Part shown: positions 24,306 to 41,362 of the stretch, in pieces
Layout: every line of letters starts with the position of its first letter
Numbering within the stretch: position 1 is the first letter of the stretch
From: Pseudomonas sp. B6002
Lineage (GTDB): Bacteria > Pseudomonadota > Gammaproteobacteria > Pseudomonadales > Pseudomonadaceae
Length of the DNA stretch: 64,000 nt
Assembly (NCBI RefSeq): GCF_013385985.1
Contig: NZ_JACAOY010000014.1
Span: forward strand, 112,947 to 176,946
Reading direction: 5' to 3'
Notes under the pieces: generated by a model
What the model was told of the DNA's origin: nothing
Seen by the model: the letters and a program-made list of their open reading frames with translations, nothing else
Databases searched by the model: none
Program-made: the position numbers and the translations under genes

Positions 24306-25355
24306 TCAGAGGTCGATGCGGCGCAGTCTTCCGGTTAATGGCACAACGTTGCCATCCGGGGTTGGCAACGGCCGGCCCGTCAAACCCATGCCTTCACTCA
24401 CCACCACTCCACCGGGCACCAGGCACAGGTTGGAGGGTGTATCCAGCCCGCGTGCCAGTACTTTCACGTCACCGTTGTGCAGGTCGCAGTCGAGCAGGCG
24501 CCCCGAGAATCGGGTAAAGCCACCGTGCAGGGTTTCGCCGTTCCAGTCAGGTGGCAACGGTTGTTGCAAATGGCTGCACAACTCCAGCACCAGCAGATGG
24601 CCGTTGGCACGCAATGCCAGCCCGGTGGGCAGTTGCAGGCCGCTGATCAGCACCTCGATCTGCCCGCTGGCCGGGTGTACCCGGATCACCTGGCCGGCGT
24701 GGTCGGCAAAGTCGATGCCTTTGCGGGCCGGGTCGCCGTGCAGCTCACCGGAGAACAGGCTGATCAACACGGCGTCGGTCTGCGGCTCATACACGAGGGT
24801 GACGGGTACCGCTTCCTGGCCCTTGTCCAAGTCGGGCAGTTGCACCCGCACACGCTCGTCTTCACCGTCGCCGAATTCCACCAGCTGGTTGGTATCGGGC
24901 TTGACCGCCAGCCAACTGCGCCGGGTCGGGTGGTAGCACAGCGCGTTCAGGTTGCCCCGGCTGTGGTACACCGGTTCGGGCGGGCTGTATTGCAGGTCGA
25001 GCAACTTGGAACCGCCGACGTAATCGGTCTGGCTGGCCAGGCAACGCCCGCCACCGCAGGCGATGTCCGACAGGCCCATGATTTCATCGCGCAGCATGCG
25101 CGCCTGCATGTTCATGGCGCGAAAGCCCTGGGCCAGGGGATCCCCCGGCAGGTAGGCGCCGGGCCGCTTAGGATCGGGGTGCAACGGGCTGATGCGGCCA
25201 CTGAAGGTCTGGTCCGGCAAGCCTGAACCAGCCTCGGCCAGCAACAGGCTGCCGTCGACTTGCAGGCACAGGCCACGGGGGTTGAGCAGGCCTTCGGCGA
25301 TCAGCGTGCTGGGGCGCAGGGTTTCGCTGGGCTGCGCCGGTATACGTAGCGTCAT
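24306..25355 (-). CDS. Putative beta-propeller protein (NHL/SMP-30-like), last gene of ebo operon
   Basis: A 349-residue soluble protein without signal peptide. Repeating units such as LIAEGLLNPRGLCLQVDGSLLLAE, VLISGLQLPTGLALRANGHLLVLE and VLARGLDTPSNLCLVPGGVVVSE fit propeller blades of the NHL/gluconolactonase kind. No catalytic residues are assignable. It starts 12 bases after the preceding VioB-like gene, so it closes the twelve-gene operon. Scytonemin clusters also contain propeller-type proteins; that parallel is an inference. Its TGA stop lies directly beside the REP cluster. Confidence 0.75.
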   Translation of the reverse strand: MTLRIPAQPSETLRPSTLIAEGLLNPRGLCLQVDGSLLLAEAGSGLPDQTFSGRISPLHPDPKRPGAYLPGDPLAQGFRAMNMQARMLRDEIMGLSDIACGGGRCLASQTDYVGGSKLLDLQYSPPEPVYHSRGNLNALCYHPTRRSWLAVKPDTNQLVEFGDGEDERVRVQLPDLDKGQEAVPVTLVYEPQTDAVLISLFSGELHGDPARKGIDFADHAGQVIRVHPASGQIEVLISGLQLPTGLALRANGHLLVLELCSHLQQPLPPDWNGETLHGGFTRFSGRLLDCDLHNGDVKVLARGLDTPSNLCLVPGGVVVSEGMGLTGRPLPTPDGNVVPLTGRLRRIDL

Positions 25356-25367
25356 GGCGGTGTCCTC

Positions 25368-27176
25368 CTACTGCGGCGGTTGCCAAGGGGTTTGGGTGAG
25401 GTAGGCACTCAACAGGGCGCGCTGTGACGGCGACATCGAACGCACCACCGGCATGTACAGCGTGGTGCCCTTGTACACATCCGCGATGCGCGCGAGGATC
25501 GCGTTTTTCGCGCCCATGACCGCGTCCGGCTTGTTCAATGCGACGTAGCGCGACATGGCAGGGAAGGCCAGGTAGTGAAAGCGCAGGACGTTGGGGTAGA
25601 CCATGTCCCAGGTGATGGTTGTGCCGGCGGGGATGCCAAAGTCGGTCTGGGCATATTTGCGAAAGCTGGTGAAGTAGCCACTGCTGTCGAGCCCGTTGGC
25701 GGTGCAGTTCAACGCGACGAAACCCGCCTGGGCTTCGCTGCCCGGCTTGAGCGCCACCGGGACACTGATCGAGCGTTGGCCGGTTTCCATTGTCAGTGTG
25801 GCGGGAAAATCGAGAAACTCGTAGTCCTGCGGGTCGGTGTACAGCGCCGGTGGCGATTGTTCAATACTGATAGCGGTGGCAGCGGGCACCGGACCGCCCA
25901 GGTAGCGAACCTGCAACGTGATCGACAGGCCGTCAGGGTAGTCTTCCAGGTAGACGTTACGCAGATCGCCGTACACCCGGTACTCCGATTCGAGGGCCTT
26001 GAGGGTCGAATCATCGACAGTATCCGGGGCGTTGACCGCCAGGGCCGACGTCTGCGCAGCTTGCTGCTGGGTGGCATTCAGGGGCAGGTCGACGATGCCG
26101 CCATACACGTAGTAGTCAACCAATGGGCTGCTCGTTGGGTCGAGCGTTGTGAGCTGAGTGGTGCCCGCGGTAATGCTGACCGGGCCGTAATTCGCATTCG
26201 GCCCGATGGGGCTGGTGATGTCGGTACGGTCAGCGCGGAAGGTTTGCTTGGGGATGAGGTTAACCATGTCGATGCTCAGCAGGCCATTGCCGGCCAGCTC
26301 CGCATAGGCGGCATTGTCCGTGTCCTGGTTGATCAATTGGCGACCGGGTTGAGAGTTCAACGGCTCATCGGCAAACGCCGGTGCCAGTGTGCCGATGACG
26401 CGGCCGATGCTCGGGTTCGGGTCATTTTTGTTGGCCGCATAATCGGCGTTCAGCTCGGCCGTGGTCATCCTGGGGCACATCTCGAACATCACGAAGCGCA
26501 GCACGATCCCCGTTGCCCCCGGTGCCTCGATGATCGATTTGAGGCCCGCGCTGTTGCGGTTCCATTGGACAATGCTAGTGAGCGGGAACGTCAGCTGGAA
26601 CGTACCGCTGGCATGGAACGAGCCGGGTGCGTCCATGGTGTTTGGCTTCAGCACCCGGGTCTGCACATCGAAACTGCTGCACACGGTGTTGCAGTGAATC
26701 AGTAACTGGAGGTCGTCATCCGTGCCTATTTGCAGGCCGCCGACGAAGATCTGGGTGGTGGTGGACGCTGTCGGGTCGAGGTCTACCATCATCGGGCCGG
26801 TGAAAGGCCCCTGGCCGGTAACCGGGTCCACCGATCCAAGCAGGCCGATCGGCTGGCCAACGAGGTCGCCAGTGGTACTGACGCTGCCCGGGTTGCCCTG
26901 GGAGCTGATCAGGGCGTTTTCCATGAAGACTTGATGGTCCCCGAAGTGGTTCCAGCCGCCGAGGGTATAGCGCACCGCACTCGGGGTATCGATCATGGCG
27001 TTCAGTTCGTCATCGCTGTAAGCCTCGGCCTGGGGGGCCACGATAGAACGCGCCAGGTCAAACACCGGCCAACCGTTGTCCGCGTTTTGGGGCAGGCATG
27101 GGGTGTTGTTCGACACGCTGACGTCGGTGGTGATACCGCCCCAGAAATTCAGGCGGGGTCCGTTGAGGATACTCAT
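25368..27176 (-). CDS. VioB N-terminal-like protein, copy 1
   Basis: A 602-residue protein without signal peptide, probably cytoplasmic. From memory it lines up with the N-terminal region of VioB, the haem enzyme that couples indole-3-pyruvate imines in violacein synthesis: MSILNGPRLNF at the start, VDLDPTASTTTQIFVGGLQI at 131-150, GIVLRFVMFEMCP at 223-235, GGIVDLPL at 359-366, NVYLED at 407-412, and YMPVVRSMSPSQRALLSAYL near the end. The ferritin-like C-terminal domain of VioB is absent. It follows the CxxCH protein gene with a gap of three bases. A paralogue is at 29437-31800. Confidence 0.72.
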   Translation of the reverse strand: MSILNGPRLNFWGGITTDVSVSNNTPCLPQNADNGWPVFDLARSIVAPQAEAYSDDELNAMIDTPSAVRYTLGGWNHFGDHQVFMENALISSQGNPGSVSTTGDLVGQPIGLLGSVDPVTGQGPFTGPMMVDLDPTASTTTQIFVGGLQIGTDDDLQLLIHCNTVCSSFDVQTRVLKPNTMDAPGSFHASGTFQLTFPLTSIVQWNRNSAGLKSIIEAPGATGIVLRFVMFEMCPRMTTAELNADYAANKNDPNPSIGRVIGTLAPAFADEPLNSQPGRQLINQDTDNAAYAELAGNGLLSIDMVNLIPKQTFRADRTDITSPIGPNANYGPVSITAGTTQLTTLDPTSSPLVDYYVYGGIVDLPLNATQQQAAQTSALAVNAPDTVDDSTLKALESEYRVYGDLRNVYLEDYPDGLSITLQVRYLGGPVPAATAISIEQSPPALYTDPQDYEFLDFPATLTMETGQRSISVPVALKPGSEAQAGFVALNCTANGLDSSGYFTSFRKYAQTDFGIPAGTTITWDMVYPNVLRFHYLAFPAMSRYVALNKPDAVMGAKNAILARIADVYKGTTLYMPVVRSMSPSQRALLSAYLTQTPWQPPQ

Positions 27177-27179
27177 GAT

Positions 27180-28430
27180 CTATTCCTTGATCGGGGAAGG
27201 GGTGGCACCCGGTGTCTGGGCGAATTTGAACAGGTAGGAGTAGTCGGACTTGATCGCGCTCTTGGGCGGCGTCGCCATCGAATGGCACGCCATGCAACTG
27301 CTGGTGGGCTGGATGTAGCTTTCCATGGTCACGTTGGCCGACAGCGTGGGGGTGGGCGTGCCCATGGGGTTGCCGATCATGTTGGGGTTGAGTGGCCGCT
27401 GGGTGGTGATCAGCTGGTAGTACTTCAACGGGCTGTTTTTCAGGCCAGGGTCGGCGCGGTAGGTGGCGTTGACCTTGTCGGTGGCGCTATCAATGGCAGT
27501 GACACGGGTCAGCGGGTCGGGTGTCTGGAACGTGGTGCCGCTCACCGGTACGCACACCGGATGCGCGCCTTGGGTGTTCCAGTTGCACGGCGACTGGTTG
27601 ACGGTGGTGGCGGCAGGGTCGTAGTAGCTGCCGTGGGTTGACGGGTCGGCCGGCACATTGTCGATTTGCTCGAAGGTCGACCACACCCACTGCGGGTAAC
27701 CGACGGGCTTGGTGATGATGTGCAGCCCCACCAGCCCCAGGAGTTGCTGGGCGACCCCGTTGGGCTTGCCCTGGGCGTCGAACGTGGTCACTTGCGCGAT
27801 CATGTTCAGGTAGCGGCTGGCATTGTCCTTGGACGTGAGGATGCGCCAGCTGGATTTGACCTCGATGACCCCGTTGGGGAACTTGATGCTGCTGGCGTTG
27901 GACACCACATTTGCGTTGTAGAACGTGTTGTTGACGATGTAATCGTAGGAAGTCTCGTTGGCAGCAATATCGTAATAGGTCGGGTTGCCGGCCTGGTCGA
28001 TCAGCCATCCGCCCACCGCCTGGTCGACGCGCTCCTGTTGGTTAGTGTTTTTTAGTGCGGCAATGTTGATAAGGCCCAGGCTTTTGGCTCTGAGGACGCT
28101 GTCCCATGGCCCGGGGTTGGCGGCATTCGGCAAAAAGATTTCTGCGACGCTCTTGTAGGTTTGCCACACGGTATAGCCGCTGCCACCGGGTTGCTTGGTG
28201 CAGTCGGGGCTGCCGCGTTGCCCGTCCTGGGCCGGCCAGTTCAAGGCGACAAACAGCTGCCAGCTGTACTCATCGAACAGTGTCTGGCCGGCGCCGGCGG
28301 CCGGCGCGGCGGCGGGCAGTTGGCAACTCAGCGACGTGGCCAGGGCCGACGGCTGGGTCGCCTCCCTGGCCTGGGCCGGCAGGTTGGCCAGCCCCAGCAA
28401 CAGCATGGAAAAACACACGAGGGTTTTCAT
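27180..28430 (-). CDS. Secreted monohaem c-type cytochrome-like protein, copy 1
   Basis: A 416-residue exported protein. The signal peptide is MKTLVCFSMLLLGLANLPAQA. A single haem c motif CMACH (379-383) lies near the C-terminus. Family-like landmarks shared with the paralogue at 31811-32950 are YSWQLFVALNWPA, TSYDYIVNNTFYN, EVKSSWRIL, and GLHIITKPVGYPQWVWSTFEQ. The long Trp/Tyr-rich region before the haem site is unlike simple electron-carrier cytochromes. It is translated just ahead of a VioB-like gene, as in the second copy. Function unknown; periplasmic electron transfer or oxidation is the natural guess. Confidence 0.75.
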   Translation of the reverse strand: MKTLVCFSMLLLGLANLPAQAREATQPSALATSLSCQLPAAAPAAGAGQTLFDEYSWQLFVALNWPAQDGQRGSPDCTKQPGGSGYTVWQTYKSVAEIFLPNAANPGPWDSVLRAKSLGLINIAALKNTNQQERVDQAVGGWLIDQAGNPTYYDIAANETSYDYIVNNTFYNANVVSNASSIKFPNGVIEVKSSWRILTSKDNASRYLNMIAQVTTFDAQGKPNGVAQQLLGLVGLHIITKPVGYPQWVWSTFEQIDNVPADPSTHGSYYDPAATTVNQSPCNWNTQGAHPVCVPVSGTTFQTPDPLTRVTAIDSATDKVNATYRADPGLKNSPLKYYQLITTQRPLNPNMIGNPMGTPTPTLSANVTMESYIQPTSSCMACHSMATPPKSAIKSDYSYLFKFAQTPGATPSPIKE

Positions 28431-28456
28431 GGCGGATCCTTCCTTTCATGTCAGGG

Positions 28457-29374
28457 TCAGGGTTGCATGAGCTGGTTCCATTGCGCCTTGTGGCCGTTAC
28501 TTTTGCCTGCCGGGGGCACGAACAACTGGCACGGCGGCGGGTTCGATGGGCACATGGCGGCCACCTGGTCCCAGGTGTCCTTCGGGTCCGGGGTGGCGAT
28601 GCGGAAGTTGGTGTAGTTCTGGCTCACGATGGGCGCGTTGGCGACACTGGTATCCCCCGAGAAAAAGAATGACTGCGGCTGCCGGTAGGGCGGGCTGCCG
28701 GTGGCTTGTTTGTTGAAGGCGTAGCCAAACAGGATCGGCCCTGCGGGTGATTTGAGGTCCATGGCATAGGCTTGCAGGCTGCCGCCCAGGTGTTTGCTGC
28801 GGTCGGCGCTGTAGGGCAGGTGCTCGATGAAGCTTTGCCGTGGCGGGTGGTTCATCGGCGAGAACATGCAGCAGGCCGGCATGTCTTTCGGGCGGTCTTG
28901 CGGGTAAGTGAGGAAGTAAGCCTTGTTGCCCAGGGACACGAAGGTGCAGGTGTAGTTGTTGTCCTTGATAGGAAAGATCGGCAGGCAGTACTTCTCGTAG
29001 TGCTCCATCATCGCGCCGAACCCGTCGCCGTCCGCCGGGATGTAGGTGGTGTCGTAGTAGCTGGTGCCCTTGGACACGGTGTAGTCGGCCGGCGTCAGGG
29101 TGGAGGGCGGGTCACTGTAGGGCGGCGGGTTTTTCTGGTAGTTGTGGATCACCCGGTACATGGTCCAGTCGCTGATCCATTGCGCGGGGAAGAAGGGATC
29201 GGACGGATCGCTGGGCGTACGTTTGGCGATGCAGTTGCCATTTTTTTTAGTGCAGCCTTCGCTGTTGTGTACCCCATTGGTGAAATACACCGCGCCGCTG
29301 TCATTGGCAGCAAATGCCGCGGGGCTGAGCAGCAGCACCAGCAGCAAGAATCGACGCAAGAAGTTGGCGTTCAT
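28457..29374 (-). CDS. Secreted Cys-containing protein of unknown function in ebo operon
   Basis: A 305-residue exported protein with signal peptide (RRFLLLVLLLSPAAFA). Cysteines occur in EGCTKKNGNC, KYCLPIF, YTCTF, PACCMFS and the C-terminal AAMCPSNPPPCQ, suggesting disulfides or metal binding. It has no haem motif. ATG 29374 is used; the longer frame upstream only covers the intergenic gap. It lies between the two paralogous cytochrome/VioB-like pairs. I do not recognise the family. Confidence 0.75.
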   Translation of the reverse strand: MNANFLRRFLLLVLLLSPAAFAANDSGAVYFTNGVHNSEGCTKKNGNCIAKRTPSDPSDPFFPAQWISDWTMYRVIHNYQKNPPPYSDPPSTLTPADYTVSKGTSYYDTTYIPADGDGFGAMMEHYEKYCLPIFPIKDNNYTCTFVSLGNKAYFLTYPQDRPKDMPACCMFSPMNHPPRQSFIEHLPYSADRSKHLGGSLQAYAMDLKSPAGPILFGYAFNKQATGSPPYRQPQSFFFSGDTSVANAPIVSQNYTNFRIATPDPKDTWDQVAAMCPSNPPPCQLFVPPAGKSNGHKAQWNQLMQP

Positions 29375-29436
29375 ATGACACTCCTGTGCAGTACCGGGTG
29401 ACGCTGGCGTCACCCGGTGGTCCTGGCGTAACAGCG

Positions 29437-31800
29437 TTATTGGTAGTCGCTCATGCTGAGCGGCACGGGTGGGTAATTGCGTTTCACCAAGGCCTGCGCC
29501 CATAGCTCCAGCACGGCGCGACGGCTTTGCGGCATGTCGCGGGTGATGGGCATCGCCAGGGTGCTTTCCTCTTGGTATTCCTTGCTGATCAGCACGATTA
29601 GCTGGTCTATAGCGCCTTCGATCCGGGTCAGGGAATTGAGCGGCATGAACTTGTTCATGATCGGGTAGAGGTAGTAATAGGGTTTGAGGATGAAGGGGAA
29701 GATAAAGGTCTCCCAGATCACCGTGCTCGCGTCCTCGCGCTGGTAAATGGCGTTCCAGGCCGTGACGAAAGCCTTCTGCAGTTCGGGTTCCAGCGGCAGC
29801 ACCCGCAGCGGTGCGAGGAAGTCGACATAGGCTTCGGCGAGCGGGAAACTGAAGGGAATACCCGGCGCCTGCTGACCTTCCTGCACGAAGAAGCGCAGGG
29901 TTGGAAAGCCCGGTGCTTGGCCCGTGACCGTCAACCGGGCAATCCCATTGGCATCGGTTTGCACAGAGGTCACGTTGTATTGCACGGCGCTGTTGAGCGG
30001 GTCGTCCAGGACGCCTTGGCGGCTGATCGGGTTGGAGAACGCCAAAGTAGGCTGCAGGGACACTGCGGCGGGTGTCTTCAAATAGGTCTGATAGGTCACC
30101 GGTTGCGTCGTGTCTGTGTTTTCGGCGGGCAGTATCGACATGAGCTGGCGGCCGGTGCCTTCGGTCAGCATCGTCGGCAGTGCGGACGTGCCCTTGAATT
30201 GGGGCAGGTTGGCAGTGTTGTTCGCGAAGTTGGAGGGATCATTGTTGAACAGCGTGAAGTCGGCCGCATTGCTGAACGTCAGGTAATAGTCGGTGGTGCA
30301 CAGCATGTAGGCATTGCCGTATTCGGCGACCCATAAGGTGGTGCCGGCCGGTGCCGGCTGGCCATTGCGTTGCACCATGATCTGCAGTGTCTGGGTGGCA
30401 CCGACGTCGATGAAACTGCCGCTCTCGATCACCTCGGCAGTCCATTCTTGTTGAGTGGCGGCGACTGCATTCGGGCTGCCCAGCAATTGCAGTTCCAGCG
30501 TGCCGCTTTGCAGCAGGGTCTGCGCCGCCACGGTGAAGGGTAGGTCGAGCAGGCCCGAGCGTTGGTCGAACTGCGTCTGTTGGTAATCGGCATAGCTGAA
30601 GCGGGCCAATTCGTTGAACTGCGTGCCCTGGCGGATGCCAACCGCGTAGTCGCCCGCCAGGTATTTGGCCGCCACAGGGATGGGGGCGCTTTTGTCGACC
30701 GGATAGAACGCAAACGTGTTGCCCAGATCCAGCGACAAGGTGTTGCCATGGATCTGCGCCGAGGTCACGCCGAGCTGTACCTGTTTCGGGGTGTCCCCGG
30801 GGGTGATGTGAATCGGCACTTTGGCAGCCGGCACCAGGCGCATGCCGGCAGGTGCGGTGGGGAACTCATCCTCGAACCACAAGCCCAGGGTGCCGACCGT
30901 ACGGCTGTAAGCGGGGTTGAAGAAAATATCGCCGACGTTATCCAGCCCCTGCTGGTACATGGCCTGCACCTTGGCCAGGGCCTCGGGGCTTGAGGAATGA
31001 GTGTCGATGGGCGGGAAGTCATTGAGGATGCCGTTCTTGTCGTAGCACGTGAGGTACGTCGTGAAACGGAACATCAGGCCCTTGGCGTTTTGCTGCTGCA
31101 TCTGTGCTTGCAGGTTTTTCAGCAGGGCCGAATCGCCCACTGCCCATGCCAGGTTTTCTTTCGGGAAACAGGTCTGCCAGGTCGTGGTGACGTAGCTCAG
31201 GCCGCCGAGGCCGGCCCATTTGAAGTTCAGCAGACGGTCGAGCATGCGATGCTCGCGGTTCAGGGTCAGGCCGCATTGCGGAGTGCCCAGCACCAGCTTG
31301 TCGAAGTACAGCGCGGTAAAGGTGTTCTGCCACGGGCTCACGTCGACAAAGCGCGCCGCTGTGGGGCCTGCGCCGCCAAAGGGATTGCCCACCAGTTGAT
31401 AGGGCTGGTTGATCAAGGAATCGGTAGCGACATAGCCACCGTCGGGCAGTTCGCCGCCGCTGATCACCGATTGGGTCTGTTGGTAGCTCACCGTGCCGCA
31501 GGCGTTGTCGCCGAACAGGTTCCATTCGCCGGGGATCATCGGCGTGGTCACTTGTGGGGCATTGCCCGGTACTTGCAGCACATAGTCGGGGATCTGGTTG
31601 ACCGGCAGCGGCGCAATCGTCCAGGGCAGCAGTGTGCTGGCCGCATTGAGCGGCGTAATGCCAAAAGACTCCAGGAACGGCCAGTTCATCTGCATCTTCA
31701 CCGCGTCATACACCGGGAACATGTCGTTGTTATTGGCCGTTGGCGGGTTCCAGAACATGTGGCCTTTGACGTAGATCCGAGGAAAATTCAATACGCTCAT
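29437..31800 (-). CDS. VioB N-terminal-like protein, copy 2
   Basis: A 787-residue protein without signal peptide. The N-terminus MSVLNFPRIYVKGHMFWNPP, continued by TAN, closely recalls the VioB start (MSILDFPRI...G...N.PTAN). Further shared landmarks are FVDVSPWQNTFTALYF at about 151-166, VGTLGLWFEDEFPTAPAGMR at about 302-321 (VioB has VGVVGLW...E...PAGR), GLLDLPF in the middle, and MPITRDMPQSRRAVLELW near the C-terminus. It is longer than copy 1 by about 185 residues in the central part and lacks a ferritin-like domain. It starts ten bases after the second CxxCH gene. Confidence 0.75.
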   Translation of the reverse strand: MSVLNFPRIYVKGHMFWNPPTANNNDMFPVYDAVKMQMNWPFLESFGITPLNAASTLLPWTIAPLPVNQIPDYVLQVPGNAPQVTTPMIPGEWNLFGDNACGTVSYQQTQSVISGGELPDGGYVATDSLINQPYQLVGNPFGGAGPTAARFVDVSPWQNTFTALYFDKLVLGTPQCGLTLNREHRMLDRLLNFKWAGLGGLSYVTTTWQTCFPKENLAWAVGDSALLKNLQAQMQQQNAKGLMFRFTTYLTCYDKNGILNDFPPIDTHSSSPEALAKVQAMYQQGLDNVGDIFFNPAYSRTVGTLGLWFEDEFPTAPAGMRLVPAAKVPIHITPGDTPKQVQLGVTSAQIHGNTLSLDLGNTFAFYPVDKSAPIPVAAKYLAGDYAVGIRQGTQFNELARFSYADYQQTQFDQRSGLLDLPFTVAAQTLLQSGTLELQLLGSPNAVAATQQEWTAEVIESGSFIDVGATQTLQIMVQRNGQPAPAGTTLWVAEYGNAYMLCTTDYYLTFSNAADFTLFNNDPSNFANNTANLPQFKGTSALPTMLTEGTGRQLMSILPAENTDTTQPVTYQTYLKTPAAVSLQPTLAFSNPISRQGVLDDPLNSAVQYNVTSVQTDANGIARLTVTGQAPGFPTLRFFVQEGQQAPGIPFSFPLAEAYVDFLAPLRVLPLEPELQKAFVTAWNAIYQREDASTVIWETFIFPFILKPYYYLYPIMNKFMPLNSLTRIEGAIDQLIVLISKEYQEESTLAMPITRDMPQSRRAVLELWAQALVKRNYPPVPLSMSDYQ

Positions 31801-31810
31801 GTCAGGCTCC

Positions 31811-32950
31811 TTAACGTTGCCACTGGGCGCGTTTGAGCGACCAGACAAAGTCCAGTTTGTGGTAACCGACGAAGTCGGCGGCCGGCAACTCGGCGGTGGG
31901 GTAGACGATGCCGCCCTGTTGCTTCAGGGCGAAATTGAAGTAGCCCTGCTTGGGCGAGTACGCCGCCGTGCCGTGGCAGGCAAAACACGACGACTCGCTC
32001 TGGAACGCCGACTCCAGTTGGGAGTTGGCCAGCAGGGTGGGGTTGGTTTCCGACTGCACGCCGATCAACTCGTACTGCGCCAATGTCGGGTTGGCGGCCT
32101 GGAAGCTGGTGTTCACCGGTTGCGCCGCCGCCGTCGGGCCGGTGCTGTTGGTCATCGGGGTGGCCGGCGTCGCGTTGGTCACCGTGTATTTGCTGTTGTT
32201 GACGTTTTCAAAGGTGGTCCAGACCCAGTTGGGGTTCAGCTTGTTGATCACGTGCAACCCGCTCAATGCGGCGTAACCCACCTGGTAGGTGCTGCCTTGC
32301 TGGTAGTAGGCCTGGGCGATGTAATAACCGTCGTTGGCCAGTTGCTGTTGATAGGTGGCGTCGCTGCCGATCCACAGCCACGCGGCCTTGAGTTCCCAGG
32401 CGGTGGAGGGGAAGTTCAGGTCACTGGTGAGCGCCGCCTGGCCGTTCACGTTGTAGACCTTCTGTTGGACGATGTAGTTGAACGTGTCCTGGCCCATCAG
32501 CAACTGAAAGCGCACCGCCTGGCCTTTCTCGGCAGCCGGCACCTGGCCGCCCATTTGCAGGATCAGCCCGTCCACCTGCTGCGTGGCGTTGAGGTTGTGA
32601 AACAGGCGGCTGGTGTTCATGCCCAGCGCTTTGGCCTGCGTGAGCACGGCGGCGGGCACCGGCACGCGCTGGGCATATGGCAGCGGTTGGGCGCCATTTT
32701 TCAGGTAGACCTGGTCTGACGGTTTCAGCGTTTCCCAGACCCGGTCCGGGCTTTGCGTGGACGCGGGCTGGTTGAGGCAGGCGAACCAGTTCCAGGCCAG
32801 TGTCTCGGGGCTCTGGGTGAACAGGGTTCGGGTGGCGTTGACGTTGCCTCCAAACTGCAAAAAGTTGCTGCAATCGAAGGTGCTGGGGGCCTGGGCCTGG
32901 GCCAATCCGGCCAGTGCACTCAGGACAGTGATTGATAAGGCTCGCCGCAT
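31811..32950 (-). CDS. Secreted monohaem c-type cytochrome-like protein, copy 2
   Basis: A 379-residue exported protein; the signal peptide is MRRALSITVLSALAGLAQAQA. The haem c motif CFACH lies at 322-326. It shares LAWNWFACLNQPA, DTFNYIVQQKVYN, WELKAAWLW and GLHVINKLNPNWVWTTFENV with the protein at 27180-28430, so the two are clearly paralogous. ATG 32950 lies 31 bases inside the end of eboF, which indicates translational coupling and joins this half of the cluster to the ebo genes. Confidence 0.78.
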   Translation of the reverse strand: MRRALSITVLSALAGLAQAQAPSTFDCSNFLQFGGNVNATRTLFTQSPETLAWNWFACLNQPASTQSPDRVWETLKPSDQVYLKNGAQPLPYAQRVPVPAAVLTQAKALGMNTSRLFHNLNATQQVDGLILQMGGQVPAAEKGQAVRFQLLMGQDTFNYIVQQKVYNVNGQAALTSDLNFPSTAWELKAAWLWIGSDATYQQQLANDGYYIAQAYYQQGSTYQVGYAALSGLHVINKLNPNWVWTTFENVNNSKYTVTNATPATPMTNSTGPTAAAQPVNTSFQAANPTLAQYELIGVQSETNPTLLANSQLESAFQSESSCFACHGTAAYSPKQGYFNFALKQQGGIVYPTAELPAADFVGYHKLDFVWSLKRAQWQR

Positions 32951-34365
32951 GGAAGCTCCTTGGCTGTGGCCAGTTCGGTGTGTGGGCGCCCCAGGAAGTG
33001 TTCCAGGAGCAGTTGCTTGACTGCCGTCGCCGCAAGCTGCTGCGGCAACGCCAGGTCGCAATTGGTGATCAACAACGGACCGCTCTGCAGGCTGCTCGGC
33101 AGGCGGCCATGGCTGCCACGGACCAGGCGGGTGTCCAGCGGGATCAGGTCCATGTAGTAGCGAAAGCCGAGTTTTTTCTGCAGCAGACGGCGCGCGACTT
33201 TCAGCCGGGGGAAGCGGATGGCCGGGTCGACAAACAGCTCCAGCGGGTCGTAGCCGGGCTTGCGGTGGATGTCCACGGTGCGCGCAAAATCCGGGGCCTT
33301 GCGGTCATCCAGCCAGTAGTAGTAATCGAACCAAAACCCGGCGGCGGCCACCGCCACCAGCTCGCCGCTGCGCGGGTGGTCCAGGTGCCAGGCGCGCTGC
33401 TCGGTTTTATCCAGCACCTGCTCGATGCCTGGCTGGCGCTGCAACAGGGCTTTGACGCGGGGAATGTCCTGCGCCTGCTTCACATAAACATGCGCGATTT
33501 GATGATCGGCCACCGCGAACGCCGCACTGGCCCCGGCGTCGAGCAGTTCCCAACTGAGGGATTGGCGCACCTGCAACAGGCCTTCGTCGCGCAGCACACG
33601 GTTGATCGAGATCGATTGCTCGACTGCTTCAATGCCGTACTCGGAGAGCACCATCACCGCTGCCCCTTGTGCCTCGGCGAACGCCAGCAAGCGCCCGACT
33701 TCCAGGTCGATGGCGCGCACTTCATCGGCAATCGAGGGGTGGTCGGGGCCCACGCGTTGCAGGCTGTAGTCCAGGTGAGGCAGGTAGATCAATTGCAGGT
33801 GCGGCCGATTGAGCTGGAATTCGGCCATGGCGCAATCGACGATCCAGCGGCTGGAGCGAATGCCCGCCGCTGGCCCCCAGAAGCCGGGAAACGGAAACTC
33901 GCCGATCTGCTCTTCAATCTGGGCGTGCAGCTCGGGCGGCGACGAATACAGGCCGAACTGTTTGCGCCCGTCGGCGGGGTAATGGGGGCGCGGGGTGATC
34001 GCGGCGTCCACGTCGGCGTACATGTTGTACCACCAGAACAATTGGCTGCAGCGAAACCCCGGCAGCGCGCGCTTGAGGGTGTGCCAGACCTTTTCACCCT
34101 GGATCAGTGCGTTGGGTTGCAGCCAGAACTTCACCTCGGCCTGGTCGCGAAAGTACCAGCCGTTACCGACGATACCGTGGGCCGACGGCGGTGTGCCGGT
34201 GAGGATCGAGGCTTGCACCGTCGATGTGACGGCCGGGAACACCGGTTGCAAGTGGGCCATCTGCGCGGTCTTGAGCAGCTTGTTGATATGCGGCGTGGCC
34301 TCGCCGAGCAAGCCGGGCGTCAGCCCCACCACATTGATCAGCAGCAACGGTTGATCAGAGGGCAT
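32920..34365 (-). CDS. eboF: EboF-like nucleotide pyrophosphatase/phosphodiesterase family protein
   Basis: A 481-residue alkaline-phosphatase superfamily protein. LLINVVGLTPGLLG at the start, PAVTSTVQASILTGTPPSAH (nucleophile loop) and HGIVGNGW are typical of the type I phosphodiesterase branch, and IYLPHLDYSLQRVGPDHP supplies metal ligands. The usual SDHG metal motif reads LSEYGIE here, so the second site may be altered. No signal peptide. In the ebo set this member is EboF; its chemistry is not established. It overlaps eboE by 11 bases. Confidence 0.85.
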   Translation of the reverse strand: MPSDQPLLLINVVGLTPGLLGEATPHINKLLKTAQMAHLQPVFPAVTSTVQASILTGTPPSAHGIVGNGWYFRDQAEVKFWLQPNALIQGEKVWHTLKRALPGFRCSQLFWWYNMYADVDAAITPRPHYPADGRKQFGLYSSPPELHAQIEEQIGEFPFPGFWGPAAGIRSSRWIVDCAMAEFQLNRPHLQLIYLPHLDYSLQRVGPDHPSIADEVRAIDLEVGRLLAFAEAQGAAVMVLSEYGIEAVEQSISINRVLRDEGLLQVRQSLSWELLDAGASAAFAVADHQIAHVYVKQAQDIPRVKALLQRQPGIEQVLDKTEQRAWHLDHPRSGELVAVAAAGFWFDYYYWLDDRKAPDFARTVDIHRKPGYDPLELFVDPAIRFPRLKVARRLLQKKLGFRYYMDLIPLDTRLVRGSHGRLPSSLQSGPLLITNCDLALPQQLAATAVKQLLLEHFLGRPHTELATAKELPCGEPYQSLS

Positions 34366-35575
34366 GGGCGTACGCCTCCTGCACCGGGGAACGCAGCAGG
34401 TTGCGTTGACGCAGCTGCGTCTCGACCCAGGTCAGCTCGGCGGCGATGCCCGCCAACTGGGCCGGTTCGGAGGCGGGCCGCAGCTCGGCGGGCAGCACGC
34501 CCCAGCTGTAGGTCTCCACCTCCAGCACCGGGCGAAACTCTGGATGGGCCGCCAGGTAGTCGAAGGTTTGCGCCAATGCCACCTGGCTGCCGCTGAGTTC
34601 GGGCAGCAACAAGTGTTCGCTGAACAGCGGCACGTGGAAGTGAATGCGCAGCTCGCGATAACTGTCACAACCCGCCAGGGCGGCGGGCAAGTCCGGCCAG
34701 GCGACCACTCGGCCCTGCGCATCCAGGGCTTTGACCTGATGCAGGTAGACTGCTTCGGCAAAGGTCGCCAGGGTGTCGAGTACCCGCTGGCGCCGCGCAT
34801 CCCCTTGCGGCGGCAGGCGACAGATCATCGCGTTGGAGAGCTGGATCTTGCCCACCGGCACCCGGGCCTGGCGCAGGCGGTCCAGGGATTGATAGCAGTC
34901 CTCGAACATCACCGCCTGGTGGCACACGTCAAAACACAGCGCCAGGTAGGCATGGTTCGGATCCGTCACGCGCCGCTGCTGGAAGAAGGCGATGGCCTGT
35001 TCGGTGGTTTCCAGCACGCAGTCCGGCTCCATCTCCAGGCAGAACACGATCTTCTTGCCGGTTTCCCGGTGCAGGTCGGCGAGGGCGGCGGTGAGCCGGT
35101 TGAGGTGCTCGTCAGCCCGCCGTTGCAAGGCAGGCGTCCAGGTGGCGGCATAACCCAGCGGCACGCTGGAAATCACGCCCTGGCGGCAGCCGGCCGGCAA
35201 GGCGTCGGCGAGGATACGCGCCAGGTCCAGGCTGTAGGCCAGCCGTTGCGGGTCGGCCCAGTCTGGCAGGTAGACCTCGGCTTTCACCGCGCCCTGATGG
35301 AACTCACCGTAGGGAAAGCCGTTCAACGAGGTCAGGCGCACGCCACTGGTGTGCAGCAGCTTGAGGAAGTGCGCCCGTGCCGAGGCGTCGCGCAATTGCT
35401 CGGCAGCGCGGGCGCAGATCCACAGGCCGCTGTCCTGTTCCAGCAACCCGCGCAGGCTGCGCACGCCCTGGAAATGCTGCGCGATGGACGCGCTGAGCCC
35501 GGCGAGGTCACGGGTGGGGTGCACGTTGCTGCAATAGCCGACCTGGGCGGCCGTCCAGCCGCTGGCGGCACTCAT
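34355..35575 (-). CDS. eboE: EboE-like TIM-barrel metabolite traffic protein
   Basis: A 406-residue soluble protein resembling sugar-phosphate isomerase/AP endonuclease-2 barrels: YCSNVHPTRDL at the start, SLNGFPYGEFH, VFCLEMEPDCVLE and ALCFDVCHQAV with the acidic and histidine positions expected of a metal-binding barrel, and FHVPLF and VLEVETYSWGVLP near the end. This is the EboE family. ATG 35575 overlaps the eboB stop by four bases. The substrate is unknown. Confidence 0.87.
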   Translation of the reverse strand: MSAASGWTAAQVGYCSNVHPTRDLAGLSASIAQHFQGVRSLRGLLEQDSGLWICARAAEQLRDASARAHFLKLLHTSGVRLTSLNGFPYGEFHQGAVKAEVYLPDWADPQRLAYSLDLARILADALPAGCRQGVISSVPLGYAATWTPALQRRADEHLNRLTAALADLHRETGKKIVFCLEMEPDCVLETTEQAIAFFQQRRVTDPNHAYLALCFDVCHQAVMFEDCYQSLDRLRQARVPVGKIQLSNAMICRLPPQGDARRQRVLDTLATFAEAVYLHQVKALDAQGRVVAWPDLPAALAGCDSYRELRIHFHVPLFSEHLLLPELSGSQVALAQTFDYLAAHPEFRPVLEVETYSWGVLPAELRPASEPAQLAGIAAELTWVETQLRQRNLLRSPVQEAYAHAL

Positions 35576-36456
35576 TTGACCACCGGTTCCTGGCCGCGCA
35601 GGGCCGAGTTTTCCTGCCACTGTTTGCGCTGGTCGATGGGCAATGGGGTGCTGACCAGGGCCTTGTCCAGCTGGCCGCTCTGGGCGAAAAAGTCCACCGG
35701 GTTGTGGAACAGCACCTGCTCAACTTGGGCTTCGCTGAAGCCTGCGGCCAACATGGCCTGGCCGGTCTTGGGCACCTTGAGCGGGTCGCTGATGCCCCAG
35801 TCCGCCGCGCTGTTGACCACCATTTTTTCGGTGCCGTATTCCTTGAGCAGGGCCACCATGCGTTGCTCGGACATCTTGGTGTTGGGGTAGATCGAGTGGC
35901 CGCGCCAGCAGTCGCTGTCGAGTACCAGGGGCAGGGTGAGTTCGTTGAGGTGGTCGATGATCACCAGGTGCTCGGCAATCCCCACTTCGCGGACCACCGC
36001 CAGGGTGCGCTTGGTGCCGCCGATCTTGTCGCGGTGCGGTGTGTGCACCAGCACCGGCAGGTTGAATTGCTTGGCCAGCTCCAGTTGGGCAGCGAGAAAC
36101 CGGTCTTCTTCGGGCGTGATGTCGTCATAGCCGATTTCGCCCACCGCCACCACGCCGTCCTTGACCAGGTAGCGCGGCAAAATCTCCAGCACTTCATTGG
36201 CAATCGACAGGTCGTTGGCCTCCTTGGGGTTGAGGCCGATGGTGCAGAAGTGGTGGATGCCGAACATGCTCGCGCGAAAGCGCTCCCAACCGAGCAGCGT
36301 GTCGAAATAGTCGACGAAACTGCCGACGCTGGTGCGCGCCTGGCCCTGCCAGAACGCAGGTTCGATCACCCCGGTGATGCCAGCGGCGGCCATGTTCTGG
36401 TAGTCATCGGTGGTGCGGCTGACCATGTGGATATGCGGATCGAAGTACTTGAGCAT
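35572..36456 (-). CDS. eboB: EboB-like TatD-family metal-dependent hydrolase
   Basis: A 294-residue amidohydrolase-fold protein. DPHIHM at residues 6-11 gives the HxH metal pair, VGEIGYDD the bridging acid, LVHTPHRDK and IDHLNE further histidines, and NSAADWG the late aspartate. TatD-type nucleases share this pattern, but within ebo clusters the role is in handling an unknown metabolite. It starts 39 bases after eboA, the largest gap among the six ebo genes. Confidence 0.87.
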   Translation of the reverse strand: MLKYFDPHIHMVSRTTDDYQNMAAAGITGVIEPAFWQGQARTSVGSFVDYFDTLLGWERFRASMFGIHHFCTIGLNPKEANDLSIANEVLEILPRYLVKDGVVAVGEIGYDDITPEEDRFLAAQLELAKQFNLPVLVHTPHRDKIGGTKRTLAVVREVGIAEHLVIIDHLNELTLPLVLDSDCWRGHSIYPNTKMSEQRMVALLKEYGTEKMVVNSAADWGISDPLKVPKTGQAMLAAGFSEAQVEQVLFHNPVDFFAQSGQLDKALVSTPLPIDQRKQWQENSALRGQEPVVK

Positions 36457-36495
36457 GGTGAATCCTCGTCAAGGGAAAAGGGCAGGCGGTGGGGC

Positions 36496-37179
36496 TCAAT
36501 TCAGGTAGGCGTGCCATTCCGGTGGCAGGTGCAGGCCGCCCAGGCGCTGGCGTTGCGCGGGGCTGAGCAGGTGGAAGGCGATGGCGCGAGGCAGCCCGGG
36601 GGACACGGGGCGATCGGCCGCCAGTTGCTCGTCCAGCAGGTCGAGGGCGAGTTGGTTGAGGGTGACGCCCTGGCGTTGTTCCAGGCCGATCAGGCGCTCA
36701 ATGTCGAGGCCCATGCCAAGTGCTTTGAGCACAAGCTGGTGAAAGGCACGCTCGGGGTAATGTCGAGATGGGTAGGCGGTGTCCAGCGCCAGGGCGGCAA
36801 ACACCTGGGGGTTGCTGGTGCGCCCGGCCTGGAGCGCCAGTTCCAGGCACACACCCTCGCTGTCGAGCCAGTCGAGCGCCTTGAGGGTGGCGACTTTTTC
36901 GTGGTCGTCGCCCCACAGGAACAACTGGCGCAGCAACGCCGGACGCTCGTCGATGGGGGCTTGTTCAAGTAGCTGGGCCAGCAACACAGCACGTACCGAT
37001 TCGACGGCGGTGGCCGGCAGGTGGCGCTTGCATTGGCCACTCAACAGCGCCGCCGTGGTGGCGCTCGGCTGTTGGGCCAGTTGCACTTGTGCCTGCTGCC
37101 ACCACTGCAATTGGGTGGCATCCAGTTGCTCGGCCAACGTGTGGTGCTGTTCGGTGAGGCATTCGGGGCGCATGTTCAT
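36496..37179 (-). CDS. eboA: EboA-like metabolite traffic protein
   Basis: A 227-residue helical protein without signal peptide or membrane segment. The arrangement LLRQLFLWGDDHEKVATLKAL followed by ALALDTAYPSRHYPERAFHQ and VLKALGMGLDIERLIGLE fits EboA-domain proteins, whose biochemical function is unknown. ATG 37179 overlaps the eboC stop (ATGA); a second ATG two codons later is also possible. Assignment rests partly on its place between eboC and eboB. Confidence 0.82.
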   Translation of the reverse strand: MNMRPECLTEQHHTLAEQLDATQLQWWQQAQVQLAQQPSATTAALLSGQCKRHLPATAVESVRAVLLAQLLEQAPIDERPALLRQLFLWGDDHEKVATLKALDWLDSEGVCLELALQAGRTSNPQVFAALALDTAYPSRHYPERAFHQLVLKALGMGLDIERLIGLEQRQGVTLNQLALDLLDEQLAADRPVSPGLPRAIAFHLLSPAQRQRLGGLHLPPEWHAYLN

Positions 37180-38060
37180 GTCGGTTTGATCCAGCGCTGA
37201 AAGTGGGGGAGCAGGAAAAACACCAGCACACACAGCAGGCTGCCCAACGGCTGGTCAGCCACCGCCAGCACCAGCGCATCGAACAGCGGCAACGCCGCCA
37301 GGCCTGCACCGATAAACGCCCGCACCTGCCGATGCCGGGGGTTGGCCAGGTGCTTGACGTAATGCCAACCCAACCAGCCCAGCCACAGCGCCAATACGGG
37401 CCAGAACCACAGGTTGTTGGAGTAGATCGCCAAGGCCAGCGGGCTGAGCATCAGCAGCAACGGCAGGCGGCTGATCAGTTGGTTGTGGTGTTCCTGGCGG
37501 GCCAGGTAGGTCAGGCCGCTGATGTACACGCCCAGCAACATCGCGCAGAGCCAGATCGGCTCCGGTGGCACCGCCAGGCTGGCGGCGGCGGTGAGGTACA
37601 GCGCCGAGCGGCAGGCGCCCATCAGCCACACGCTGTGGGCGTATTTCTTGTGCAGCAGGTTGTAGCCAAAGATGCAGCCCACCAGCAGCACCACGCCGCC
37701 GAGCAGCCAATGGGGTTGATCGATCAACTGGCTCAGGCCCAGCACCGCCACGGCGGCCAGGGTCAGCAACAGTGCCGTGGCGCGCCCCACTTGTTGGCGG
37801 CTGGCCAGGCCCAGGGTGATCGGGCGCGGGTTGTGGTGTTGTGCGTCCCAGTCGGCGTCGAGCAGGTCGTTCAACAGCATGCCGGCCAGGTACAGCAGCG
37901 ACAGCGTGAACAACAACAGCAGCCACACCAGCGACGAAGGCGGCGCCAGGGCCCCGGCGCTGCTGGCGAGTAGGGCGGCGGCCAGGGTGTTGGTCCACAC
38001 CGTGGGCAGGTTGGACACGCGGCCCAGAGTCAGCCAGGTTTTTACGTCGGCCTGGCTCAT
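37176..38060 (-). CDS. eboC: EboC-like UbiA-family prenyltransferase
   Basis: A 294-residue inner-membrane protein with about eight to nine helices. GRVSNLPTVWTNTLAAALL at the start and NDLLDADWDAQHHNPRPI carry the UbiA first aspartate motif that binds prenyl diphosphate with magnesium; RQVRAFIGAGLAALPLFDAL is near the end. UbiA enzymes attach isoprenoids to aromatic or other acceptors. In the ebo set this is EboC. Both ends overlap neighbours by four bases. Confidence 0.88.
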   Translation of the reverse strand: MSQADVKTWLTLGRVSNLPTVWTNTLAAALLASSAGALAPPSSLVWLLLLFTLSLLYLAGMLLNDLLDADWDAQHHNPRPITLGLASRQQVGRATALLLTLAAVAVLGLSQLIDQPHWLLGGVVLLVGCIFGYNLLHKKYAHSVWLMGACRSALYLTAAASLAVPPEPIWLCAMLLGVYISGLTYLARQEHHNQLISRLPLLLMLSPLALAIYSNNLWFWPVLALWLGWLGWHYVKHLANPRHRQVRAFIGAGLAALPLFDALVLAVADQPLGSLLCVLVFFLLPHFQRWIKPT

Positions 38061-39928
38061 TTTGCGAAACCCTCATGCAGCGGCAGTGGGGGCTCGTGGC
38101 GGGTCATCAGCCGTTGCAGTGCCCACTCCATTCGTGCGTCATCGATCTCGTGCAGGTCCACCGACTGGCCGATCCGGTTGAGCATGGGGATCGACAACTG
38201 CCCGCCCAGGTGCTGGCGGAATTCCTCCAGGCCGAGCAATACCTGCGAGCGACCTTGGTTGTCCTTGAGGCCCAGTTCTGCCGGGCACAGGTTGAACCCC
38301 AGGGTGCGCAGCAGGTTCATCACCCGTTCGCTGTCGGCTTCGCTCAGCAGCCCCAGGGCATTGGCGTACAGGCCATCCAGGGCCATGCCCACGGCAACCG
38401 CCTCACCGTGGCGCAAGCGGTGGTGGCTGAGGTTCTCCAGCTTGTGCGCGGCCCAGTGCCCGTAGTCCAGCGGCCGGCCATTGCCGCGTTCGAACGGGTC
38501 ACCGGCACCGGTGATGTGACCCAGGTGCAATTCGGCACAGCGGCGGATCGCGTAGCGGCTGGCGCTGTGTTCGAAGTGGGCGAGGGCGTCGGCGTGCTGC
38601 TCCATCCATTCGAAGAACGCCTGGTCCTTGATCAGCGCCACCTTGACCGCCTCGGCGAGGCCGGCGATCTGATCGCGACGCGTGAGGCTGGTGAGTAACT
38701 GGAAGTCATTGATCACGGCGGTGGCGGGGTAGAAGGCTCCCAGCAGGTTCTTCTGGCCGAAGGCGTTGATGCCGTTTTTCACGCCGATACCAGCGTCATT
38801 TTGGGCGAGTACCGTGCTGGGCAGGCGGATCAGACGGATGCCTCGGTGGAACGTGGCACAGGCGTAGCCCACGGCGTCCAGAACCGCGCCACCGCCCAGG
38901 GCCAGCACGTAGCAATGTCGATCGAGCCCGTGTTGCAACATGTCGCGGTAGAGCTGTTCGAGTACCTGCGAGGTCTTGCTCAATTCACCGGCCGGCACCG
39001 CGATAGGGGCTGTTTGCAGATGCAGGTCGTCATGGGCGGCGAAATACGCGTCGATCTGCTCACCCAACTGCGGGGCGCTTTGCAGCAACTGGGCGTCGGC
39101 AAACACCATCACCGTCACCGGGCCCGCGTGGTGGGCGGTGAGCTGGCCGTGCAGGCACGGATTGAGTGGGGCGAACAGGTGATCGGTGAACACCACCGGG
39201 TAGTCGTAGCTCACCTCGAAGCGCCCGTGCAGCGGTTGATCCCTGGCGGGTTTGCGCAGGGTCTTGAGCAGGCTGTAGCCGGCGACGAACAACAGCGGCA
39301 ACACCATGCTGGCGAGCACCGTCACCAGCAGCGCGTTCTGTTCGATCAGGAAGGTGCCGATGGCCGTGTAGGCCAGCGCCAGCCCGGCGTTGGCCAGGGT
39401 GGTAATCAGCAGGAACGCCCGCAGCGGATAGCGTTGCATGCCGGCCGCGACCACCGAGGTTTCCGCCAGCACCGGCACGCCGCGCAGGCAAATCAAGGAC
39501 AGCGTGCCCAAGCGATACCCCAGCTGCCCTGGCCGGCGCTGATGCAGGCCCAGGCGGCTGGACAACAACCGGAAATACCCGGCACCCAGCGCATACCCCA
39601 AGCCGGCGCCCAGGCACAGCCCGATAAAAATCACCAGGTAACCGCCCAGGCCGCCGAACAGCGCGACCGCCAGCAACGCCACCACGCTCGACGGCACCGG
39701 CAGCACCACATCCAGCGCGAGCAGGGCGACCAGCAACAAGGCGAGATTGAGTGTTTGCGCGGGTGTCGACGGTTGGTACAGGTTCAGGTGCGTGAGGAAG
39801 TCTTGGATCTGTTGTTCGAACAACAGGAAGCTGGCGATGACCAGGCCGCAAAAGCACAGCAATGACAGCCAGAAATGTTCGGCTGGCCCCTTTTTCGAGA
39901 ACGCACGGTACCACTGGCTGCGCTTCAT
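38057..39928 (-). CDS. eboD: EboD fused to a DedA/VTT-type membrane domain
   Basis: A 623-residue two-part protein. Residues 1 to about 215 form a membrane domain with about six hydrophobic segments that resembles the VTT/DedA (SNARE-associated) fold (DVVLPVPSSVVALLAVALFGG, then LRGVPVLAETSVVAAGM). Residues about 230-623 are a 3-dehydroquinate synthase/sugar-phosphate cyclase domain: ALGGGAVLDAVGYACATFHR, LPSTVLAQNDAGIGVKNGIN, KNLLGAFYPATAVIND, AEAVKVALIKD and RHGEAVAVGMALD. It is the first gene of the twelve-gene operon. ATG 39928 has AGGGA seven bases upstream. Confidence 0.88.
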   Translation of the reverse strand: MKRSQWYRAFSKKGPAEHFWLSLLCFCGLVIASFLLFEQQIQDFLTHLNLYQPSTPAQTLNLALLLVALLALDVVLPVPSSVVALLAVALFGGLGGYLVIFIGLCLGAGLGYALGAGYFRLLSSRLGLHQRRPGQLGYRLGTLSLICLRGVPVLAETSVVAAGMQRYPLRAFLLITTLANAGLALAYTAIGTFLIEQNALLVTVLASMVLPLLFVAGYSLLKTLRKPARDQPLHGRFEVSYDYPVVFTDHLFAPLNPCLHGQLTAHHAGPVTVMVFADAQLLQSAPQLGEQIDAYFAAHDDLHLQTAPIAVPAGELSKTSQVLEQLYRDMLQHGLDRHCYVLALGGGAVLDAVGYACATFHRGIRLIRLPSTVLAQNDAGIGVKNGINAFGQKNLLGAFYPATAVINDFQLLTSLTRRDQIAGLAEAVKVALIKDQAFFEWMEQHADALAHFEHSASRYAIRRCAELHLGHITGAGDPFERGNGRPLDYGHWAAHKLENLSHHRLRHGEAVAVGMALDGLYANALGLLSEADSERVMNLLRTLGFNLCPAELGLKDNQGRSQVLLGLEEFRQHLGGQLSIPMLNRIGQSVDLHEIDDARMEWALQRLMTRHEPPLPLHEGFAK

Positions 39929-40417: not shown

Positions 40418-41362
40418 TTACGTCGGCGGGACAACACGGAAACCGCCCGACAACGCGTTCTTTAAATAGGCCACTAGAACACTCACCGCCTTCGGCACAT
40501 GGGGCGAATACGGCCGAATCAAATAGATTTCATCGGCAAACACCCCCTTGAGTGTCCAGTCCTTGAGCACCTGCACCAGCTTGCCACTGGCCAGTGCGGC
40601 ATGGGCGCTGAAATCCGGGAGCAGGGCGATGCCCAAGTGGTTGAGGGCCGAGTCGCGCAGGGCTTCGCTGTTGTTGGTGGCGAAGCTGCCAGCGATGGGC
40701 ACGGTGAGGCGCTGCACGTTCTTGACGCCGCGCTCAAAAGTCCACGCCGGCTGGTCGGTGCCACGCGGGTAGAACAGGCAGTTATGCGCTGTAAGGTCGC
40801 CGGGTTCGCGCGGTTCGCCATGGCGCTGCAGGTATTCCCGGGTCGCCACCAGCACCGAGGCGGTGTCGCACAGTTTCCAGGCTACATGGGTTTCCGGTAC
40901 CTGGAAGCCATGCCGCACGGCCAGGTCATAGCCCTCGGCTGCCAGTGAGCTAAGCGCATCGGATACGTCCAACTGGATACGCACCTGCGGGTACTGCTGC
41001 AAGAACGCAGACAGGTGCGGCACCAGCTGCTGACGGGCGAACGCCACCGGCGCCGTGAGGCGCACCAGGCCGCGAATCTCGCCTACCGAGTCACGTACCG
41101 ACGAGAAACTGCGGGCGATGTGCTCGTAGGCGCTGCGCACTTCGCGGGTCAACGACAGGCCGGCATCCGTCAACCGCACGCTGCGCGTGGTACGGGTGAC
41201 CAGCCGGGTACCGGTGGCTTTTTCCAGGTCGGAAATGCGCTGGCTGACCGCCGACTTGCTCACGCCCAGCCGCGCCGCCGCCGCGGTGTAGGTGCCTTGT
41301 TCTTCCAGTACCGACAGCCAGTGGATATGGGTCCACAGCCCTTCGATCTCAGCTTTTTCCAT
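40418..41362 (-). CDS. LysR family regulator, divergent from aldehyde dehydrogenase
   Basis: A 314-residue LysR-type regulator with the helix-turn-helix at about residues 12-70 (WLSVLEEQGTYTAAAARLGV, then SKSAVSQRISDLEKATG) and an effector domain containing LVRLTAPVAFARQQLVPHL. It belongs to the group often controlling a divergent catabolic gene. ATG 41362 is chosen; a TTG nine codons upstream is in frame but less likely. The divergent mmsA-type gene starts 110 bases away and is the probable target. Confidence 0.9.
   Translation of the reverse strand: MEKAEIEGLWTHIHWLSVLEEQGTYTAAAARLGVSKSAVSQRISDLEKATGTRLVTRTTRSVRLTDAGLSLTREVRSAYEHIARSFSSVRDSVGEIRGLVRLTAPVAFARQQLVPHLSAFLQQYPQVRIQLDVSDALSSLAAEGYDLAVRHGFQVPETHVAWKLCDTASVLVATREYLQRHGEPREPGDLTAHNCLFYPRGTDQPAWTFERGVKNVQRLTVPIAGSFATNNSEALRDSALNHLGIALLPDFSAHAALASGKLVQVLKDWTLKGVFADEIYLIRPYSPHVPKAVSVLVAYLKNALSGGFRVVPPT

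Follow-up and report, generated by a model that had tools for sequence, protein, structure and literature searches.

A Pseudomonas operon of the ebo/EDB kind with homologues of the N-terminal half of VioB and secreted CxxCH proteins

We analysed a 64-kb stretch of Pseudomonas sp. B6002 (contig NZ_JACAOY010000014.1; hereafter the window), in which a minus-strand operon of 12 genes runs from 39928/39931 down to 24306 in the order EboD, C, A, B, E, F, c1, V1, S, c2, V2 and P (Table 1). The initial annotation had described a tightly packed operon made up of the ebo set, two homologous pairs of a secreted CxxCH protein (c1, c2) and a VioB-like protein (V1, V2), a secreted cysteine-containing protein (S) and a propeller-like protein (P), and all of this was borne out. 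The 11 junctions range from a 58-base overlap to a 62-base gap once the starts of c1, V1 and S are corrected to 32950, 31800 and 29374, each with an AGGAG site before it. All six ebo genes A-F are contiguous and are recognised by models for EboE, EboA and EboD and by UbiA, TatD and phosphodiesterase domains. Scores stay below the cut-off for a longer model of the EboA family (71 bits against 320) and for the EboC equivalog model (83.7 against 250). EboD has an ATG at 39928, directly preceded by a TTG codon at 39931. Both pairs are homologous by profile comparison, c1 with c2 (Table 1) and V1 with V2 (hhalign 98.9%, across V1 17-782). Judged by eye, the N termini of c1, c2 and S are signal-like, and no signal peptide is seen in V1, V2 or P. 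The operon is flanked by a TonB-dependent receptor (21553-23985) and a LysR regulator (40418-41389), and promoter and terminator scans of both its ends gave nothing informative. The locus looks like the Pseudomonas version of a known kind, the ebo/EDB cluster, which has been associated with nematode repellence, and resembles EDB by description.

Table 1. Genes and sites of the operon, with positions in the window and the basis of each assignment
Feature	Positions	Strand	Basis
EboD, sugar-phosphate cyclase like dehydroquinate synthase (DHQS), with N-terminal VTT/DedA domain	38057..39928	-	PF01761, PF24621, PF09335 above cut-off; PRK06203 (DHQS-type) 631 bits, cut-off 333
VTT/DedA domain of EboD, residues 79-193 counted from 39931	39353..39697	-	PF09335 43.3 bits, cut-off 33.9
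EboC, UbiA-type prenyltransferase	37176..38060	-	PF01040 42.8 bits
EboA	36496..37233	-	NF035938 136 bits, cut-off 50
EboB, TatD-like hydrolase	35572..36456	-	PF01026 46.1 bits
EboE, TIM-barrel protein	34355..35620	-	NF035939 395 bits, cut-off 250
EboF, phosphodiesterase/nucleotide pyrophosphatase family	32920..34365	-	PF01663 212 bits
c1, secreted, one CxxCH, predicted P460/c'-beta-like fold	31811..32950	-	Signal-like N terminus, CxxCH, structure comparison
CxxCH haem c site of c1 (C322-H326)	31973..31987	-	Invariant in 62-row c1/c2 alignment
V1, homologue of VioB N-terminal half	29437..31800	-	hhalign, BLASTP
S, secreted, cysteine-containing, VioE/LolA/ependymin-type predicted fold	28457..29374	-	N terminus, structure comparison
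c2, paralogue of c1	27180..28430	-	hhalign c1 with c2 99.7%
CxxCH haem c site of c2	27282..27296	-	Sequence; invariant column
V2, homologue of VioB residues 1-580	25368..27176	-	hhalign 97.5%, E 6e-12
P, ScyD/ScyE-like propeller protein	24306..25355	-	NF033206 (ScyD/ScyE) 57.9 bits, E 1.2e-15, below cut-off 80

Judged by their sequences, V1 and V2 are homologous to the N-terminal half only of VioB, so that the relation proposed in the initial annotation holds for that half. Neither passes the VioB model TIGR04492 (28.6 bits for V1 and 23.8 for V2 against a cut-off of 1250), on which the two true proteins that served as reference VioB (L151 and L159) score 1701 and 1747 bits. Profile comparison aligns V1 with VioB residues 1-375 (hhalign 98.2%, E 5e-14), V2 with a longer part of the same half (Table 1) and the V proteins of other lineages with residues 1-585 (99.5%, E 2e-23). 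Decoys, comprising one reversed and three shuffled VioB sequences and the profiles of c1, c2, S, P, EboD, EboE and EboF, reach 1.5% at most, and BLASTP of VioB against V1 gives an E-value of 2e-12. The C termini of V1 and V2 fall at the point where the ferritin-like half of VioB starts, and this half (PF12902) is absent from the window's own genome (0 of 1). One of 24 other genomes with EDB-type loci (G079) does hold a lone PF12902 gene, which was considered as a partner of V and rejected, there being no V within its 20 kb region. Searches of PDB sequences with V and with whole VioB found no related structure (whole VioB gave only two cytokine matches, taken as chance), so that there was no solved VioB-type structure to use. 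Across a 37-row sample of V proteins and VioB N-terminal halves, the columns shared by at least 85% contain no histidine or cysteine.

The two halves of VioB are found as separate adjacent genes (V and Fer, for the ferritin-like half) in Chromobacterium, Azospirillum, Solimicrobium and two cyanobacteria (Nostoc and Gloeothece), often beside ebo genes and S. For instance, the order in Chromobacterium is S-V-Fer-D-E-C-A-B-F (L129, L131-L133), and Solimicrobium has two V-Fer pairs. Each of the 22 Fer rows collected has a V on its own strand at a distance of 3-175 bases, and Fer aligns with VioB 601-937 (hhalign 98.1%). Six residues of this part, E612, E672, H675, E728, E806 and H819 (VioB L151 numbering), are identical in 24 of 24 rows, namely the 22 Fer, two of which repeat a Solimicrobium contig, and 2 VioB; because of their ExxH pattern they are presumed to be ferritin-type metal ligands. 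Such a V-Fer pair has the appearance of a naturally occurring VioB in two parts. Proteins of the PF12902 type can also stand by themselves: five genomes match VioB in that part only and have no V by profile. A tree built from 41 rows of V and VioB gives full support to V1 and to V2 as one group each. V1 joins with the c-paired V of Gloeothece and with that of L138, which is Fer-paired (96/93); the 17 remaining Fer-paired V come together in a single group, and long branches leave the deep order unsure. Some of these loci carry further genes. Upstream of S-V-Fer in Solimicrobium (L126 6947-9606) lie a propeller protein of the pyrroloquinoline quinone (PQQ) type and a ChrR-like cupin, and directly 3' of S in L138 (10951-12894) is a 647-aa protein with no Pfam match at E <= 0.01.

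The partner of each V in Pseudomonas is, by contrast, a secreted CxxCH protein, as in c1-V1 and c2-V2. The motif is present in 40 of 40 c1 and 41 of 42 c2 proteins, the exception being a shortened frame (L120:10883-11929). When predicted structures are compared, the fold of c1 appears nearest to that of cytochrome P460/c'-beta, though Foldseek by itself did not place c1 (best E 0.14). The corresponding model PF16694 is not passed: 2 of 62 c1/c2 members match at E <= 1, the best at 0.048 (14.5 bits against 27). A search of PDB sequences with the c profile found no relative. The idea that c is a remnant of the ferritin-like half was rejected, c1 and c2 matching Fer at 0.1% (hhalign).

S has invariant cysteines and, by eye, a signal peptide. 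Its fold is predicted to be of the VioE/LolA/ependymin type, without sequence support: VioE chains occupy ranks 1, 2, 3, 5 and 6 of a Foldseek search with the predicted structure, VioE coming first and LolA and EPDR1 tying. By sequence, S and VioE give hhalign 0.6% with a score of 17.9, inside the range of 100 shuffles (maximum 20.8), the global alignment is not significant, and the S profile found no relative among PDB sequences (the c, V and S searches together gave one LysR match, E 2.6). P is like the ScyD/ScyE propellers and does not reach the cut-off of that family (Table 1).

The linkage of the downstream genes to ebo, proposed in the initial annotation, stands in Pseudomonas: V1 and EboE are each found in 25 of 200 Pseudomonas genomes, and these are the same 25. 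In all 24 other Pseudomonas regions c1-V1 follows the ebo genes with the order kept, so the arrangement is not due to chance. All twelve genes are present in 17 of the 24, and S-c2-V2 is absent from the other 7; D-C-A-B-E-F-c1-V1-P is therefore the core and S-c2-V2 a separable block. One genome (G169) is rearranged: EboC of its main locus (L072) is only a 26-aa match, and S-c2-V2 with a copy of EboC stands at the start of the contig that also bears the main locus (C13; L109/L202).

Outside this set, a scan of a species-genome collection with the S alignment, which relied on two short conserved peptides and gives counts that are lower bounds, found at least 61 loci. Of these, 44 are of the Pseudomonas kind (c with V), 14 have V with Fer and 3 are small fragments or S alone. 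Fer and c occur together in none of the 61, but both are found on a Gloeothece plasmid (L003). At least three ebo genes lie in 40 of the 44 Pseudomonas-kind stretches, the four others being contig ends (L098, L116, L143) or the rearranged copy of G169 (L109). The 14 Fer-type stretches hold at least three ebo genes in 8 cases and none in 6. Nine genomes with less complete loci (that of L140 not among them) were checked for EboE, which six have and three, those of L123, L130 and L138, do not. A general tie of V to ebo, or of ebo to V, was considered and rejected on wider counts. Among 146 genomes from the phylum of the Nostoc genome G206, five hold EboE and only G206 itself, picked for having V, matches the V profile. 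In the order of G203, EboE occurs in 17 of 300 genomes and the full V profile in 2 (G203 and G565), both with EboE, a third match to the V profile (G236) being a true VioB. G565 has V-Fer and five ebo genes together and is the only independent case of V with ebo in that order, since G203 was picked for having V.

EboD of the window carries a VTT/DedA domain (Table 1), which suggests a candidate flippase for export of the product. The match of EboD to the undecaprenyl phosphate transporter UptA is weak (E 0.001; 19.1 bits, cut-off 250). Of the 24 other full Pseudomonas regions, 22 have the domain in EboD, and none of 15 loci with EboD outside Pseudomonas (two of which overlap) gave a hit to it. 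In the L083-L124, L139 and L142 stretches EboD is cut at its start, and these do not bear on the question. The two Pseudomonas EboD without the domain (L066 1428-2666 and L072 2118-3362) belong to genomes that also have no S-c2-V2 beside the core. In a Ramlibacter (L130) and a deltaproteobacterial metagenome-assembled genome (L128), a DedA-like protein has its own gene just upstream of S, with an overlap of four bases at the start of S; these score 36.9 bits (above the cut-off) and 21.9 bits (below it), respectively. Both share with the EboD domain the stretch D-V-[LV]-L-P-[VI]-P-S-S and an R..P...E pattern.

As described in parts of PMC6282210 (2018), EDB contains the full ebo cluster, insertions in eboA, eboD or eboE make the bacterium edible, the repellent was not found in the supernatant and some other EDB frames have signal peptides. 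E. coli carrying the EDB cluster gave two compounds with an ethanol group, indole-3-aldehyde and an indolyl oxoacetamide, according to passages of a review (PMC9655573). The initial annotation had proposed an aromatic, perhaps indolic, product that was unknown; the indole link is published, and since indoles from the EDB cluster are in print the product is not wholly unknown. Our reading, held tentatively and falling short of probable, is that the EDB-type ebo operon makes and exports a surface-associated aromatic compound, most likely derived from tryptophan, by a pathway divided by the inner membrane. Our data establish the homologies, the absence of the ferritin-like half, the gene linkage and the fusion of domains; the substrate, the order of steps, the compartments of catalysis and the role of the flippase are inferred. 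V1 and V2 would hold or shape a reactive, indolic imine-type intermediate in the cytoplasm, EboC and EboD would make a prenyl- or cyclitol-type carrier that the DedA/VTT domain of EboD might flip, and the Ebo proteins would move the intermediate out. In the periplasm, the P460-like c-haem proteins c1 and c2 could carry out the oxidation or coupling for which VioB would use its ferritin-like half; S could take up or rearrange the product in its VioE/LolA-type pocket. A more specific version, in which a coupling pathway of the violacein type is split by the inner membrane, with the Pseudomonas ferritin-like half missing, its oxidation left after export to secreted P460-like haem c proteins, a secreted VioE-fold enzyme downstream and Ebo as a lipid-carrier exporter with a DedA flippase, is decidedly unlikely to hold in full.

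Two points weigh against our reading. The export model proposed in PMC6282210 is a cyclitol-lipid carrier moved by a CPS ABC permease; section 7 and a term search of that text give no flippase or DedA protein, and no lipid-conjugated monomer is reported found there. In addition, no tryptophan oxidase was seen among the operon genes and 20 of the 35 other frames of the window that were scanned. This last point also favours a product that is not a bisindole, with V, c and S acting on some other aromatic, such as a quinoline-like compound bearing a prenyl group, and the indoles of E. coli being by-products. Parts of PMC9235831 describe an EboC homologue, UbiA-297, that farnesylates 8-hydroxyquinoline-2-carboxylic acid, and the indoles reported in PMC9655573 are simple ones. 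Against it stand three links to indole dimer pathways, namely that V are VioB homologues, that P is ScyD/ScyE-like and that ebo of Nostoc serves the indolic scytonemin, and we consider it somewhat unlikely. An unlikely alternative is that V1, V2 and S are non-catalytic binding or carrier proteins (S being a LolA-like carrier of the periplasm) that keep a hydrophobic product soluble while it is exported, with c as electron carriers and export perhaps by the CPS ABC permease. The high ranks of VioE in the structure comparison of S speak against it, as does the position of V beside the ferritin-like half in the other lineages, where the two look like parts of one enzyme. Moreover, instead of a CPS permease, the nearest two genes upstream of the operon encode the LysR regulator and an aldehyde dehydrogenase. 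That V1 and V2 couple indole-derived imines in the cytoplasm as VioB does, other parts exporting and oxidising the product, was suggested in the initial annotation and would fit the homology over the N-terminal half, but it finds no support and is very improbable, the half with the invariant Glu/His set being missing from the genome.

If right, the divided pathway would connect the EDB nematode repellent with violacein and scytonemin. The parts played by the two VioB halves can be separated, since two-part V-Fer versions exist and the Pseudomonas version is without the ferritin-like half. For the mechanism by which Ebo exports small molecules, the DedA fusion offers a candidate translocator inside the cluster itself. 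Features beyond the initial annotation are the DedA domain of EboD, the predicted P460-like and VioE-like folds of c1 and S, and the split relatives of VioB. The NZI7 EDB cluster has reportedly been studied by Burlinson (2013) and Zhou (2022), which may treat some of these features. Neither half-VioB nor the DedA fusion nor P460-like proteins are mentioned for ebo loci in the titles and abstract openings searched or in the passages of the papers. To the extent of our literature searches, what is new is the recognition of V1 and V2 as half-VioB, the split V-Fer relatives, the replacement of Fer by haem c proteins, the predicted VioE/LolA-type fold of S and the fusion of DedA to EboD; the ebo/EDB kind of locus and its indole link are published.

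Other genes of the window include usher-type fimbrial genes on the plus strand (45950-59002), with two outer-membrane ushers and four fimbrial-domain proteins of 350-367 aa, three of them encoded consecutively at 45950-49408, and a PQQ-dependent dehydrogenase-type protein (60333-62771, minus strand; 714 bits).

Among the known systems closest to the locus is EDB of P. fluorescens NZI7, which has, by the description in parts of PMC6282210, the full ebo set and secreted non-ebo proteins as here. The identity of the two loci suggested by the initial annotation fits this description, on which the comparison is based; the paper also mentions genes for a CPS permease immediately upstream of EDB, and the closest genes upstream of the present operon do not include these. 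The ebo cluster and the scytonemin pathway of Nostoc punctiforme share with the operon the EboA-F homologues and a ScyD/ScyE-like protein. The differences are that EboD here has a DedA domain, that ScyE has a signal peptide and P none visible, and that V, c and S are not reported in the scytonemin passages. VioB (iminophenyl-pyruvate dimer synthase) has in common with V1 and V2 an MSxLxxPR start and the alignment of the N-terminal half, and has the ferritin-like half that they are without. VioE may resemble S in fold, by prediction, and S differs by its secretion, its conserved cysteines and the lack of a significant sequence match. Cytochrome P460 and cytochrome c'-beta share with c1 a C-terminal CxxCH and an export signal and may, by prediction, resemble it in fold, c1 being more than twice as long with a sequence match below the cut-off. 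Finally, the split V-Fer systems bring together S, V and often ebo, as in Pseudomonas, but keep the ferritin-like half as a separate gene where Pseudomonas has CxxCH proteins instead.

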